Source: Eubacteriales bacterium (lineage in GTDB: Bacteria; Bacillota; Clostridia; Oscillospirales; CAG-382). Taken from it: a stretch of DNA of 64,000 nucleotides. Location: positions 62,001-126,000 of the forward strand of contig JAQVPJ010000003.1 in the NCBI GenBank assembly GCA_028702135.1, given 5' to 3'. The translations under genes were made by a program, and so were the position numbers. The notes under the pieces are model-generated. The model did no database searches. It was not told where the DNA came from and saw nothing but the letters and a program-made list of their open reading frames with translations. Shown here piece after piece: positions 58,051 through 64,000 of the stretch. How positions within the stretch are numbered: the first letter of the stretch is position 1; the number at the start of each line of letters is the position of its first letter.

Positions 58051-58392
58051 TCGGTTTCCTCTCTATTCTCTTTAAGCAATATCTATACACAATCTACTAC
58101 TTACCATTTGGGATTAACAGCCGTCAGCCTTGTTAGAGCCGGCTCTTAATCTGATTAGCACTATTTGTACTCACATGACAATAAATACCTACGAGCTTTC
58201 TTTTTTCTGAGACAATGGTGGAATAAAGTGTATTCTTTATTATTTATCACATCTTACCTGACCGCACAATCTCAGTAAAAGCAGAAAAAACATCTAAAAC
58301 AGTTGATGCTAAAGGATATTTGATTCGTTTTGTAATATTTTTATATCAAATCCGTTGCTTCAATTAAGTAGGCTATTCCCCATTTTAAGTGC
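58051..58392. other. Cassette spacer with degenerate array repeat
   Basis: Holds TCTTACCTGACCGCACAATCTCAG (about 58252-58275), a diverged copy of the array repeat closest to the CCGACCACACAACCTCA version at 59101, and AACATCTAAAACAG further right. No gene or promoter is recognised. Confidence 0.5.
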
Positions 58393-59097: not shown

Positions 59098-59189
59098 AAC
59101 ATCCAACCCGACCACACAACCTCAACAAATCCCAAAAAAACATCCAAATCTACCACTCGCAACACCTGACATCCAACCCGACCTATTGA
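59098..59189. repeat. Array short repeats (unit B leader)
   Basis: ACATCCAACCCGACCACAC, ACATCCAAATCTACCACTCGC and ACATCCAACCCGACC in tandem. Nearly the same arrangement as at 60341-60428. Confidence 0.75.
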
Positions 59190-59795: not shown

Positions 59796-60247
59796 TCAGG
59801 ATCACCTGCCTCTTCGTTCCCGAGATAGACCTGGTATGGCTTGCCTTCGTAATAGTTCATTATTTGCCGTCTGAGCTTTGATGGATATAAAGGTTGAATA
59901 TTAAGCGTTGATATGTCTAACCAGTCATAACCTATCTGGTTTGTGTCCTGGTGAAGCGCGGCATTTGGAATGTCACCAATATACTCACAAAGAAAGACCA
60001 AATCAACTCTATGAAAATTCTCTCCATGCAATCCTTCAACTACAAAGAGCAGTTCTTTACTTTCCGTGAGAATACCCATTTCCTCTGCAACTTCACGGCA
60101 AGCCGCAGATGACAATAATTCTTCCACATCCTGTCCACCACCTGGCATGATGTACCATTCGCCGTCAGAATCTTTCAATTTTATCGCTAACATTTTCCCA
60201 TTTTTAATAACAAGAGCCTTGGCAGAATTTCGTATGTTTCTTGCCAT
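59783..60247 (-). CDS. NUDIX hydrolase
   Basis: 154 aa from the ATG at 60247 (CGAGGTGATGTT upstream); the ORF-track start adds leader. A complete Nudix box, starting GGQDVEELLSSAACREVAEE and continuing MGI, fits G-x5-E-x7-RE-V-x-EE-x-G-I. Hydrolyses a nucleoside diphosphate linked to some moiety; substrate unknown. Pairing with a nucleotidyltransferase-like gene recalls NUDIX-kinase or NUDIX-ANT pairs on resistance-type islands. First gene of unit C. Confidence 0.88.
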   Translation of the reverse strand: MARNIRNSAKALVIKNGKMLAIKLKDSDGEWYIMPGGGQDVEELLSSAACREVAEEMGILTESKELLFVVEGLHGENFHRVDLVFLCEYIGDIPNAALHQDTNQIGYDWLDISTLNIQPLYPSKLRRQIMNYYEGKPYQVYLGNEEAGDPECLD

Positions 60248-60340
60248 AACATCACCTCGCAAAATATAAATAAATATCATTATCGTAAATATCATTATCG
60301 ACTGAGATTATACAATACAAATCAACTTTATTACTTGTCG

Positions 60341-60428
60341 ACAACCAACCTGACCACACAACCTCAGAATTTTCTGAGAAAACATCCAAATCTACCACTC
60401 GCGAACACCTGACATCCAACCCGACCAA
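60341..60428. repeat. Array short repeats (unit C leader)
   Basis: CAACCTGACCACACAACCTC, ACATCCAAATCTACCACTCGC and ACATCCAACCCGACC, then CAATTGATTTATTATAACAT; same series as at 59098 and 63780. An AGAATTTTCT palindrome lies between copies. Confidence 0.75.
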
Positions 60429-60435
60429 TTGATTT

Positions 60436-60463
60436 ATTATAACATATTCATTCTGTTAAACAA
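60436..60463 (-). promoter_or_regulatory. Array promoter of unit C
   Basis: Minus-strand TTGTTT, 16-nt spacer, TATAAT with TG extension. Confidence 0.65.
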
Positions 60464-60470
60464 GCAAAAA

Positions 60471-60721
60471 ATGAATTTTAATGCTAATCTCACCACCTGC
60501 GTTAACAGAATCAAAAGGCTCTTTAAAAACTCCAACCGTGATGAACTCGAAAAGTGTATGGCTGACATGAGCACATTCCTTAACAAGCAATCCTCCGCTC
60601 TTATCGAATACGATGATCAACTTGTCCGGCGTCTGATTGAAAAGGTTACATATACAAGGTATCTGCGGATAAATTTAATATGGAATTTAAGTCCGGCGTG
60701 ACGGTGGACGTGGATGAATAA
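60471..60721 (+). pseudogene. Serine recombinase 3'-end remnant, longest copy (unit C/D boundary)
   Basis: MNFNANLTTCVNRIKRLFKN, then DELEKCMADMSTFLNKQS and EYDDQLVRRLIEKVT in one frame, then a frameshift into SADKFNMEFKSGVTVDVDE and stop. The EYDDQLVRRLIEKVT..DKF..EFKSG series is the C-terminal signature of large serine recombinases of clostridial mobile elements. The resolvase and zinc-ribbon parts are absent. Confidence 0.75.
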
Positions 60722-60735
60722 ATCAAGAAACAAAC

Positions 60736-60771
60736 AAGGCACTCTACGATCAAATAAACGTAGGGTGCCTT
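60736..60771. terminator. Array terminator (unit D end)
   Basis: AAGGCACTCTACG-ATCAAATAAA-CGTAGGGTGCCTTG. Ends the mgtA transcript and the recombinase remnant. Confidence 0.8.
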
Positions 60772-60833
60772 GCTCATTTAATTATGATATGGGGTTAAAG
60801 CAAACTCGGGCAAATTTGCCCTTAAGCGATAAC

Positions 60834-63479
60834 TCATAGCCATTCCTTGTACCGTCTGATATAGATTTTTTTAATCAACTGGGCAAACACAAAGTATCCT
60901 GCTAAAATTAACACAAGCCACGGAGCAAAGGCAATAGGTAGCGGCATCATATCAATACCTATCGCTAGTTTAGTGAATCCAATTGCTAGCGCCACAACTA
61001 CTACAATTAAAGAGGATACTATAAGTGGGAGTGATGGCTTGCTCTGTAAAAAGGGAACCTTTCCCGTGCGAATTATATGAATAACCAGCACTTGGGATAC
61101 TGTGCCGAACACAAACCAACCACTTTGAAACAGTGGTGCCAACTCTATTCGGTTGGCGCCGATAGCCCACCACAAGACGGCAAAGCACAGAATATCAAAG
61201 ACAGAGCTAAGCGGACCCATGTACGCCATGAAAGACTTAATCGAACGCGTTTCCCATTTGCGTGGCTTTTTAACATACTCATTATCCACATTATCAAAAG
61301 GCATGCCCATTTGGGAAAAGTCACATAATAAATTTTGCGTTAATATCTGCACCGGCAGCATCGGTAAAAACGGCAGGAAAATACTAGCAACGATAACTGA
61401 TATCATGTTTCCAAAATTACCACTTGTCGCCATTTTAATATATTTGATAATATTCCCGAAAGTACGGCGGCCTTCGATTACGCCTTCTTCAAGAACCATA
61501 AGATCTTTTTCTAATAGGATAATATCAGCAGTTTCCTTGGCGATGTCAACGGCACTGTCTACCGATATTCCTACATCCGCCTGACGCAGTGCAGGAGCAT
61601 CGTTGATGCCATCTCCTAAATATCCGACCGTATGCCCGGCCGTTTGGAGAGCTTTTACCACCCGTTCCTTTTGAGATGGCGACAACTTGGCAAACAAGTC
61701 GCAGGTATTTACTGCATCAAGCAATGCGGTGTCATCCATTAGCTCTACATCGCGACCTGTTATCAGATGGGAAGTATTTACGCCCACTTTACCACAAACC
61801 TTCAAAGCCACACCTTCGCTATCTCCTGTGAGAACAACGGTACGCACCCCATGTTCTTTGAGCGCAGTAATGGCAGATTTGGCGCTCTCTTTAGGCGGAT
61901 CAAGAAAGCCCAAAAATCCAATCAAAACCATATTACATTCGTCTTTTACACCGAAAGAACCGCTGCCCGGAACCTCATTTTTCTGCGCAACAGCAACCAT
62001 CCGCAGTCCGTCAGCATTATGTTTTTCGTAGGTTGCCATTGCCATTCGCCGGGTTTCCGCATCCATAGGTAAAACGTGGCCATGGATCTCCACAAAAGAT
62101 GAGATTGCAATCATCTCCTCAACTGCGCCCTTTGTGACAAGTTGCCTTTTCCCCTTTTTATCTGTTAAGACCACACTCATTCTGCGGCGAGAAAAATCAA
62201 AGGGGATCTCATCCACACAGTTGTAATTATCTAAAATATTTTCCAAATTGTACTTTGCAGCCCGATTAATAATAGCAATGTCAATGAGATTTTTAAGGCC
62301 GGTTTGAAAATAGCTGTTGAGGTAAGCGTGGCGCAGGATTCGGACGTCGTCCTCGCCGTGTACATTCATATACTTTTCGAGTGCAATCTTATCTTCGGTC
62401 AGCGTCCCGGTTTTGTCAGTGCACAAAACATCCATTTCCCCAAACGTTTGTATTGCACCAAGGGTACGGACAATGACCTTGTGTTTTGACATGGTTATTG
62501 CTCCCTTGGCTAAGGTTGAAGTCATAATAACAGGCAACATTTCCGGTGTAAGCCCCACTGCAATGCTGACTGCAAAAAGGAGCGAGTTTGGCCAGTCATT
62601 CTTCATAAGCCCGTTAATCAGAAACACAATGGGAACCATCACTAACATCATGCGAAGCAATAGCTTGCTAACAGAACTTACGCCACGCTCAAAGCTAGTT
62701 TCTGCTCTGTTACCGGACAGGGTATTTGCCATTGACCCGAAATATGTGTTATTGCCTGTTGTTAATATAATGGCCGTCGCACTACCGCTGACAATGTTAG
62801 AGCCCATAAAGCCTATGTTACATAAATCCGTTAGCGCATCATCCTGCTTGTTTCGTATATCACTGAATTTTTCCACCGGATTGGATTCGCCTGTCAAAGC
62901 CGATTGTGCGACAAATGTATCCTTTGTAGATAAAAAACGCACATCTCCCGGGAGCATATCTCCCGCTGAAAGCCACACAACGTCGCCAGGGACAATTTCA
63001 TCCATTGGAATCTCAATTAGTTTTCCGTCCCTCCGCACACTCGATTTGTTTGAGATCATTTTTGATAGTTTTTCAGCAGCAGTGTTAGAGCGCTGACTCT
63101 GTATAAAAGAAACCAAGCTGGACAGAAAAACTAGCGATAAAATAATGATGACTGTGAGATAATCTGGATTTTTGGATGCCACAACATCAGTAAAATAGGT
63201 AACAACGGCAACAAGCAATAAAATGATGTTAAAGGGATTAATAACCGCTTCCTTTAATCGGTGAAGCGTTGTATTTTTATTTCCTGTGGTAATAACATTT
63301 TTACCGAATTTATCTTGCCTATTTTCTACTTCCTGATTTGTAAGCCCTGTGTATGCAGAGGATAGATGTGTGAACAACTCCTCCGCTGTCAAAGAAGCAT
63401 AGGAGCGGAGCTTGAGCTCGATGTCATGCTTGTTTTTTTGAATCTGCCTGCCGTGGTTTTTTCTGTTGATAAAGTTCAC
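60834..63479 (-). CDS. mgtA: Magnesium-translocating P-type ATPase
   Basis: 881 aa from a GTG at 63479, 9 nt after AAAGGA; the ATG at 63488 touches the RBS and the ORF-track start lies in the leader. All P-type ATPase marks are present: TGES actuator, phosphorylation motif CTDKTGT, KGAVEEM nucleotide-binding region, TGDSEGVALKV, and GDGINDAPALRQADVGI. HAYLNSYFQTGLKNLID and the ten-helix layout fit MgtA/MgtB. Imports Mg2+ under scarcity. Preceded by a leader ORF and an intrinsic terminator, so expression is probably attenuation-controlled. Unit D of the array. Confidence 0.93.
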   Translation of the reverse strand: MNFINRKNHGRQIQKNKHDIELKLRSYASLTAEELFTHLSSAYTGLTNQEVENRQDKFGKNVITTGNKNTTLHRLKEAVINPFNIILLLVAVVTYFTDVVASKNPDYLTVIIILSLVFLSSLVSFIQSQRSNTAAEKLSKMISNKSSVRRDGKLIEIPMDEIVPGDVVWLSAGDMLPGDVRFLSTKDTFVAQSALTGESNPVEKFSDIRNKQDDALTDLCNIGFMGSNIVSGSATAIILTTGNNTYFGSMANTLSGNRAETSFERGVSSVSKLLLRMMLVMVPIVFLINGLMKNDWPNSLLFAVSIAVGLTPEMLPVIMTSTLAKGAITMSKHKVIVRTLGAIQTFGEMDVLCTDKTGTLTEDKIALEKYMNVHGEDDVRILRHAYLNSYFQTGLKNLIDIAIINRAAKYNLENILDNYNCVDEIPFDFSRRRMSVVLTDKKGKRQLVTKGAVEEMIAISSFVEIHGHVLPMDAETRRMAMATYEKHNADGLRMVAVAQKNEVPGSGSFGVKDECNMVLIGFLGFLDPPKESAKSAITALKEHGVRTVVLTGDSEGVALKVCGKVGVNTSHLITGRDVELMDDTALLDAVNTCDLFAKLSPSQKERVVKALQTAGHTVGYLGDGINDAPALRQADVGISVDSAVDIAKETADIILLEKDLMVLEEGVIEGRRTFGNIIKYIKMATSGNFGNMISVIVASIFLPFLPMLPVQILTQNLLCDFSQMGMPFDNVDNEYVKKPRKWETRSIKSFMAYMGPLSSVFDILCFAVLWWAIGANRIELAPLFQSGWFVFGTVSQVLVIHIIRTGKVPFLQSKPSLPLIVSSLIVVVVALAIGFTKLAIGIDMMPLPIAFAPWLVLILAGYFVFAQLIKKIYIRRYKEWL

Positions 63480-63531
63480 TGGAATCATTCCTTTCTTTTT
63501 AGAATTCCCCAGTAAAAATACAATATAGCAA

Positions 63532-63557
63532 CAAAAAAGCCGCCCCAAAGGACGGCA
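63532..63557 (-). terminator. Intrinsic terminator in the mgtA leader
   Basis: Minus strand GCCGTCC-TTTG-GGGCGGC followed by TTTTTTG, located between the leader ORF and mgtA. It is positioned to act as an attenuator. Confidence 0.85.
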
Positions 63558-63582
63558 TCAAATACACAGGCAAACTACTCCA

Positions 63583-63693
63583 TCAGCGTAGGTGCACAAT
63601 GGACAACAGCCCGCTATAAGTAGCGTCACATTGGTTTATATTCTCACATGGGGGGTTGAAGCTGTTTATCAAACTTCGAGGGTCGCTGTCCAT
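63583..63693 (-). CDS. mgtA leader peptide candidate (36 aa, MDSDP...)
   Basis: Too short for the track; read by hand. AAAGGAAGTGAGACA precedes an ATG at 63693, and the ORF ends TGA at 63585. The product begins MDSDPRSLINS and continues FNPPCENINQCDAT. Alternating acidic/Pro residues right after the start recall the MgtL leader (MEPDP..) whose nascent chain destabilises ribosomes at low Mg2+. The start and end of the ORF also form a long imperfect stem (ACAATGGACA / TGTCCATTGT). Regulation is inferred, not shown. Confidence 0.6.
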   Translation of the reverse strand: MDSDPRSLINSFNPPCENINQCDATYSGLLSIVHLR

Positions 63694-63721
63694 TGTCTCA
63701 CTTCCTTTCAATTGAAATATT

Positions 63722-63750
63722 ATCTTATCATAATAGTACTAAAATGTCAA
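63722..63750 (-). promoter_or_regulatory. Promoter of the mgtA leader
   Basis: Minus-strand TTGACA, 17-nt spacer, TAAGAT. Confidence 0.6.
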
Positions 63751-63779
63751 TCAGTCGCCAATAGGCATCTGATAGGTAT

Positions 63780-63898
63780 CTACGTCCAACCTGACCACAC
63801 AACCTCAAAAAGTTCCGAAAAACATCTAACCTGACCACTCGCCAACGCTGACATCTAACCCGACCACTCGCGAACACCTCAACATCTAACCCGACCAA
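63780..63898. repeat. Array short repeats (unit D leader)
   Basis: Four copies: TCCAACCTGACCACACAACC, TCTAACCTGACCACTCGCC, TCTAACCCGACCACTCGCG and TCTAACCCGACC. The largest cluster in the window. Confidence 0.75.
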
Positions 63899-63905
63899 TT
63901 GATTT

Positions 63906-63933
63906 ATTATAACATAATCATTCCATTAAACAA
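63906..63933 (-). promoter_or_regulatory. Array promoter of unit D
   Basis: Minus-strand TTGTTT, 16-nt spacer, TATAAT with TG extension. It would transcribe through the repeats into the mgtA leader, adding to the local promoter. Confidence 0.65.
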
Positions 63934-63935
63934 GC

Positions 63936-64000
63936 AGAAAATGGATTTTTATGCTAATCTCACCGCCTGCGTGACCAGAGCAAATGTTGCAAGTTGAAAA
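63936..64000 (+). pseudogene. Recombinase-tail element, cut by the window edge
   Basis: GCAGAAAATGGATTTTTATG and the CTAATCTCACCGCCTGCG block match the other copies. It then diverges (TGACCAGAGCAAATG) right after CACCGCCTGCG, the same place where the 54.5-kb copy breaks. Whether the tail resumes outside the window is unknown. Confidence 0.5.

Follow-up and report, generated by a model that had tools for sequence, protein, structure and literature searches.

The mgtA gene in the DNA that we analysed (a stretch of 64,000 nucleotides, hereafter the window) is preceded by a conserved leader which we take, with a probability of roughly 0.6, to be a leader-peptide transcription attenuator that reads the progress of a ribosome through a short upstream open reading frame (uORF) and is induced by low Mg2+. 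The conservation of the leader, the covariation of its helices and the dependence of its fold on ribosome position were all computed directly. We infer that the uORF is translated (given its Shine-Dalgarno sequence, frame and conservation), that low Mg2+ is the signal (given the target gene, the M-boxes of sister leaders and the precedents of mgtQ and MgtL) and that destabilisation or stalling at D2-P5 is the trigger.

Under this mechanism the conserved MDxxPRS start of the peptide would be the sensor. With the ribosome absent, or beyond about codon 8, the start of the uORF (arm 1) would pair with its end (arm 2), blocking the antiterminator, and the terminator would halt transcription before mgtA. 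A ribosome held on codons 1-7 would cover arm 1, upon which the RNA from codon 23 to the 5' arm of the terminator would fold as an antiterminator and polymerase would enter mgtA. At low Mg2+, ribosomes bearing an acidic and proline-containing nascent chain would be destabilised or stalled at the start, as in MgtL and MgtQ, and the importer would be induced; at high Mg2+ they would run through the uORF, leaving the OFF stem and the terminator to form. The elements, all of which lie on the minus strand together with mgtA, are as follows.

63722-63750, minus strand: promoter matching the consensus, TTGACA (63750-63745), 17-nt spacer, TG before TAAGAT (63727-63722); similar promoters stand 5' of homologous leaders, e.g. 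at loci L010 and L036
63698-63708, minus strand: Shine-Dalgarno sequence of the uORF, AAAGGAAGTGA, present in all aligned leaders
63583-63693 (stop included), minus strand: leader-peptide uORF of 36 codons, ATG at 63693, TGA at 63585-63583, MDSDPRSLINSFNPPCENINQCDATYSGLLSIVHLR (MDSDPRS...), assigned by conservation
63685-63695, minus strand: arm 1, the uORF start, CAATGGACAGC, partner of arm 2 in the predicted OFF state
63597-63607, minus strand: arm 2, the uORF end, GTTGTCCATTG, partner of arm 1 (OFF) or part of the antiterminator (ON)
about 63696-63685 with 63610-63596, minus strand: start:end stem, ACAATGGACAGC with GCTGTTGTCCATTGT
63621-63627, minus strand: antiterminator outer helix, 5' strand GACGCTA, in uORF codons 23-25; its partner is the terminator 5' arm at 63557-63551 (TGCCGTC)
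63609-63615, minus strand: antiterminator middle helix, 5' strand AGCGGGC; partner at 63571-63565
63565-63571, minus strand: antiterminator middle helix, 3' strand, the conserved GCCTGTG
63579-63603, minus strand: antiterminator inner hairpin, TCCATTGTGC-ACCTAC-GCTGATGGA, with the uORF stop codon inside
63551-63557, minus strand: arm 3, the terminator 5' arm, common to terminator and antiterminator
63533-63556, minus strand: intrinsic terminator GCCGTCC-TTTG-GGGCGGC-TTTTTT, hairpin at 63556-63539 followed by T6
63489-63494, minus strand: Shine-Dalgarno sequence of mgtA, AAAGGA, kept in relatives
60834-63479, minus strand: mgtA, Mg2+-importing P-type ATPase of 881 amino acids, GTG at 63479 (TIGR01524, 1115.7 bits against a cut-off of 610.75)

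The promoter, the 36-codon MDSDPR frame with its strong ribosome-binding site, the stem joining its start and end, the terminator and the GTG-initiated mgtA that an earlier note had described are thus all present, and conservation and covariation lift them above chance; the antiterminator hairpin and the lack of in-frame conservation in the C-terminal half of the peptide go beyond what that note contained. About 54 nt separate the terminator from mgtA. Promoter-like matches are at chance level when taken alone (2 found, 2.7 expected), and because the fold of the single leader sequence is only modestly better than that of shuffles (z -1.72), the case rests on comparison.

A DNA similarity search of 60 related genomes matched the window alone. 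This is explained by the sporadic occurrence of MgtA in the genome's own family, where 6 of 63 genomes gave any match at E<=1e-100 and one of those six, besides the window's own, carried a high-identity MgtA (78%). Leaders were therefore traced through MgtA, whose close relatives are scattered over the Clostridia. A homologous leader precedes mgtA at 18 loci, the window and 17 others (L009, L010, L012, L015-L022, L031, L032, L036, L038, L044/L073 and L045/L083; L022 and L046/L084 are apparently one genome), and has been lost or has decayed at L013, L014 and L023. At L013 and L014 a short leader remnant stands directly 5' of mgtA (GACAATGGATAATGAAAGGAATGG in L013, a single-base variant of it in L014), which looks like the outcome of a deletion of the attenuator. 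A covariance model of the leader gave four strong matches in 391 genomes of the class, every one directly 5' of mgtA, with matches near E=1e-3 set aside as the chance expectation for that number of genomes. A plasmid collection yielded no match.

Several further features of the locus and its genome may be recorded here. Direct repeats of roughly 60-300 nt with the core CCTGACCACACAACCTCA occur in the window at 58257-58274, 59107-59124, 60349-60366 and 63790-63807, and also at 8033-8094 of L162. Each is followed by a gene module (a NUDIX gene, mgtA, cyclase-like genes) in the manner of a cassette array, and mgtA is flanked by two copies, an arrangement consistent with horizontal acquisition. 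An ORF fragment within the repeat (60429-60701) had no Pfam match above its cut-off. In the window's own genome mgtA is the sole MgtA among seven P-type ATPase matches, and an MgtE family protein was not found.

The earlier note had expected an MDSDP-type N-terminus to be conserved before mgtA elsewhere, and this is the case: D2 and P5 are invariant in 18/18 leaders while the third bases of their codons vary (GAC/GAT; CCT/CCC/CCG), and the Shine-Dalgarno sequence and start codon are likewise invariant across the aligned leaders. A ratio resembling dN/dS was 0.65-0.69 for the uORF in frame and about 1.0 for most readings in the other frames; codons 2-8 gave 0.70 in one shifted reading, so that the signal in that segment is weak. 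The C-terminal half shows no in-frame conservation and carries indels in L015, L031, L036 and L038. Judged from sequence, then, the N-terminus of the predicted peptide and the RNA are both conserved and the remainder of the peptide is not; the situation named in the earlier note as counting against a leader peptide, a conserved RNA with a divergent N-terminus, did not arise.

Two alternative folds were found in the RNA. The OFF fold, in which the uORF start pairs with the uORF end, was evaluated together with the terminator over 16 leaders: 94.4% of cells were paired, compared with 32-56% in slid registers, and 7 cells were doubly changed against 1.5 in shuffles (0/500). The terminator helix by itself was 99.1% paired across the 16 leaders, C-G to U-A changes among them. 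When a ribosome-sized stretch over the Shine-Dalgarno sequence and first codons is masked in silico, a conserved antiterminator hairpin emerges, which competes with the start:end stem and nests GACGCTA:TGCCGTC outside AGCGGGC:GCCTGTG and then TCCATTGTGC:GCTGATGGA. In a sub-alignment, 82.9% of the cells of its 23 pairs were formed, against 79.9 +/- 0.8 in shuffles (0/500) and 31-48% in slid registers; nine pairs changed doubly where 3.6 were expected (1/500), and 16 cells were doubly changed where shuffles gave 4.7 (0/500). Of these two controls, slid registers model relatedness and shuffles do not. The covariation of the antiterminator persists without close relatives or without the window's own subclade, and L044 appears by eye to have rebuilt both the start stem and, as CCTATGT/ACATAAGG, the inner hairpin with other, compensating bases. 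The antiterminator also makes use of, and thereby explains, the conserved blocks GCTGATGG and TTGCCTGTGTA, which would otherwise have no explanation.

We also considered a direct pairing of arm 1 with arm 3 (GGACGGC:GCCGTCC) as a general antiterminator and rejected it. Although 90.8% of its cells pair, its covariation is no better than that of shuffles, and it is not predicted in the window, where it has an A-C mismatch. It could form in six relatives once arm 2 is covered, where it would blur the switch logic.

To place the ribosome, its footprint was masked at successive codons of a nascent transcript ending after the terminator 5' arm, and the probabilities that follow are those of equilibrium folding rather than of a simulated transcription. 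In the window without a ribosome, the start:end stem had a probability of 1.0 and the outer helix of the antiterminator a probability of 0. With the P site at codons 1, 4 and 7, the antiterminator with arm 3 had probabilities of 0.98, 0.78 and 0.45, falling to 0 at codons 10-31 and 0.01 at codon 34. The OFF stem stood at 1.0 for codons 10 to 22 and was still 0.95 at codon 25; with the ribosome at codon 28 or beyond, neither fold was formed. Thus, the antiterminator is predicted in the window only for a ribosome on codons 1-7, which is the conserved MDxxPRS segment. L010 and L017 showed the same dependence, and in L009, L012, L016 and L019 the outer helix likewise formed with early ribosomes only; in L020, L031 and L038 the antiterminator was preferred whether or not the start carried a ribosome, and a stable OFF stem was missing from L036. 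Once the whole RNA is present, the terminator exceeds the antiterminator in stability, its probability in the window being 0.86 even when arm 1 is masked. The finished terminator being favoured at equilibrium, the switch must be kinetic.

Another way to view the leader is beside the known systems in which a uORF precedes a Mg2+ transporter. MgtL carries an EPDP motif and acts with Rho (PMC11282234). Like the leader of the window, it is encoded before mgtA, has acidic and proline residues at positions 2-5, and should be ON when ribosomes fail at low Mg2+. However, MgtL acts through Rho access, whereas the window leader combines an antiterminator hairpin with an intrinsic terminator that is conserved; MgtL is also about 17 codons long, against 36 in the window, belongs to another phylum and shares no sequence homology. 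The motif in the window, with D2, D4 and a single proline, is weaker than EPDP. In the Salmonella mgtQ leader, Asp2 and Glu5 are required, and stems 1:2/3:4 alternate with 2:3 to act on translation (PMC8092293). The window has analogous folds and an acidic residue 2, and in both a ribosome on region 1 would free region 2 to sequester region 3; MgtQ, of 8 codons, controls translation at the mgtB ribosome-binding site within an operon, whereas the window leader is predicted to control transcription, its 3:4 helix being a U-tract terminator. By analogy, the window leader is closest in logic to mgtQ, with an intrinsic attenuator as its predicted output. It further has the elements of trp-type attenuators such as TrpL (a translatable ORF with a Shine-Dalgarno sequence, an intrinsic terminator before the gene, and a covarying antiterminator overlapping the terminator 5' arm), in which the position of the ribosome in the leader peptide selects antiterminator or terminator; such a choice is predicted in silico for the window and for most of its close homologs. 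It differs from them in having no run of regulatory codons, the sensor probably being nascent-chain chemistry at the very start, and in an OFF stem whose 5' strand includes the start codon itself, paired to the end of the uORF.

The M-box (ykoK) riboswitch, RF00380, is likewise a leader of Mg2+ transporters; in related Bacillota it stands at the corresponding position before mgtA, together with acidic uORFs. It is a different RNA, and none was found in the window's own genome or in the scanned loci of its clade; an Rfam search of window positions 60000-64000 at E up to 5 matched no family, RF00380 included. Behind mycobacterial M-boxes lies uORF2 (Rv1805A), which is conserved and whose function is unexplained (PMC12810186). 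It resembles the present uORF in standing between a regulatory RNA, there an M-box, and its target, and in having a conserved N-terminus with a constant proline, but it is actinomycete and Rho-dependent, with the proline at position 7 (PMC12810186).

We examined the breadth of such leaders in a census of about 98 Bacillota mgtA upstream regions, taking the uORF with the best Shine-Dalgarno (SD) sequence from each and counting distinct N-termini. Strong-SD uORFs were several-fold enriched over shuffled sequence, with 37 distinct ones where each shuffled set had about 7. Residue 2 was D or E in 10/10 uORFs with SD>=8 and in 18/25 with SD>=7, and 23 of the latter 25 had D or E within residues 2-4; the corresponding background for residue 2 and for residues 2-4 was 9% and 26% in 141 long ORFs, and 9% and 20% in shuffled upstream regions. 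Examples are METGSS, MEAGSSSG, MDVGSSSS, MEDGLPSN, MDGGGSS, MDTGSST, MEPESSNG, MLEDGSSR, MVDDGSSS and MDSIPRR. Many of the acidic mgtA uORFs lie 3' of an M-box, which ties these leaders to Mg2+; L121, L122, L124-L126 and the window's clade have acidic uORFs and no M-box. The proposal of a Gram-positive analogue of mgtL with the same acidic-proline logic was therefore borne out in part, acidic N-termini being the rule in Gram-positive mgtA uORFs. It did not hold for the mechanism, which is predicted to work through an intrinsic terminator and antiterminator and not through Rho, nor for the residues outside the clade, where acidic plus Gly/Ser(AGU) is commoner than acidic plus Pro.

In these leaders outside the window's clade, Asp accounts for 16% of the residues encoded by codons 2-9 and for 2% of those further on. 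Of 55 serines in codons 2-9, 41 are encoded by AGT, compared with 16 of 78 in the rest of the uORF. The AGT bias is left unaccounted for by the acidic nascent-chain model and indicates that bases or tRNAs matter too. AGT often occurs as AGT AGT after a Gly codon, within codons 4-8 (e.g. L063, L065, L066, L110, L113, L121 and L126); the idea that such pairs provide TAG-TAG stops in another frame found no supporting pattern in the other leaders.

The MDxxP start also occurs in unrelated leader RNAs, namely MDSIP and MDSSP before Paenibacillus mgtA, MDSGP in M-box leaders of mgtE, and MDADP in a corA leader. In a control of 26 M-box loci drawn independently of MgtA, where mgtE and corA were identified by eye from their N-termini and not by profile search, most mgtE/corA leaders had no strong-SD uORF, and those with one started MDSGPS, MDSGPL (twice), MDADPG, MESAEP and MSDPLP. 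The background of this control, with Mg2+-transporter loci removed by hand, comprised 7 uORFs, one of them acidic at residue 2, and is too small to lean on. At L145, L152, L153, L154 and L155, MDSGP, MDADP or MSDPLP uORFs stand between the M-box and mgtE/corA-like genes. These data suggest that the leader-peptide logic extends beyond mgtA. In L034 and L035, both Paenibacillus mgtA loci, an M-box, its terminator, an MDSIP or MDSSP uORF and a second terminator follow in series, like two stacked Mg2+ controls. Ribosomes that fail on an acidic nascent N-terminus may be a general means of sensing low Mg2+ in Bacillota, one that probably evolved repeatedly before mgtA and some mgtE/corA genes and is often layered on an M-box, with the uORF-antiterminator switch replacing the M-box in the window's clade; we hold the chances of this broader proposition to be even.

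Among other accounts of the leader, the best placed, though an improbable one, is an attenuator that responds to EF-P capacity or to the charging of particular tRNAs rather than to Mg2+, through ribosomes stalled at Pro CCN, Arg CGA and Ser AGT (codons 5-7). It is over these codons that stalling is predicted to turn the switch on, codons 6-7 are nearly invariant at the base level as CGA-AGT, the AGT bias of the other leaders points the same way, and charged tRNA-Pro is sensed by the Salmonella mgtCBRU leader (PMC8092293). However, the leader lacks the single-residue runs of classic attenuators, L015, L016, L020, L022 and L038 have substitutions of R6, S7 or both while D2 and P5 stay, the target is a Mg2+ importer, and the sister leaders use M-boxes. 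Slightly less probable still is a plain riboswitch, in which the folded leader would bind Mg2+ or another ligand directly and the uORF would be incidental. Its helices are indeed conserved with covariation, and the last two thirds of the peptide lack in-frame conservation (L015, L031, L038), but this account sits poorly with an invariant Shine-Dalgarno sequence, start codon, D2 and P5. The two alternative folds, moreover, use up the conserved blocks and leave no aptamer-like core, no Rfam family matches, and acidic uORFs recur before mgtA in unrelated RNAs, even in M-box leaders that already have a Mg2+ aptamer. We think it quite unlikely that the uORF product is a functional peptide acting in trans, in the manner of the small regulators of MgtA/MgtB: the modest in-frame purifying signal would fit, but frame-shifting indels in the middle or at the end of the ORF, its variable length, and the lack of an evident membrane segment or family match do not. 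The remaining account, an ordinary 5' UTR with a terminator in which ORF and fold are coincidental, would agree with the z score and the chance-level promoter match; conservation at 18 loci and covariation contradict it, and we give it hardly any weight.

Attenuation and nascent-chain Mg2+ sensing are each known, and it is their combination, anatomy and breadth in Bacillota that appear new. We found no description of acidic leader peptides before Gram-positive mgtA in the open-licence literature, where the mycobacterial uORF2 comes nearest, though subscription papers may have been missed; to our knowledge, enterobacteria alone had been known to sense Mg2+ through the nascent chain. The present attenuator, conserved and Gram-positive, with an ON state predicted to require a ribosome on acidic and proline start codons, offers a clean, testable system, and the census suggests that Gram-positive mgtA is as a rule preceded by an acidic leader peptide. 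If this is true, it would explain the otherwise puzzling uORFs 3' of M-boxes, and would make the stability of the ribosome itself a widespread gauge of Mg2+.
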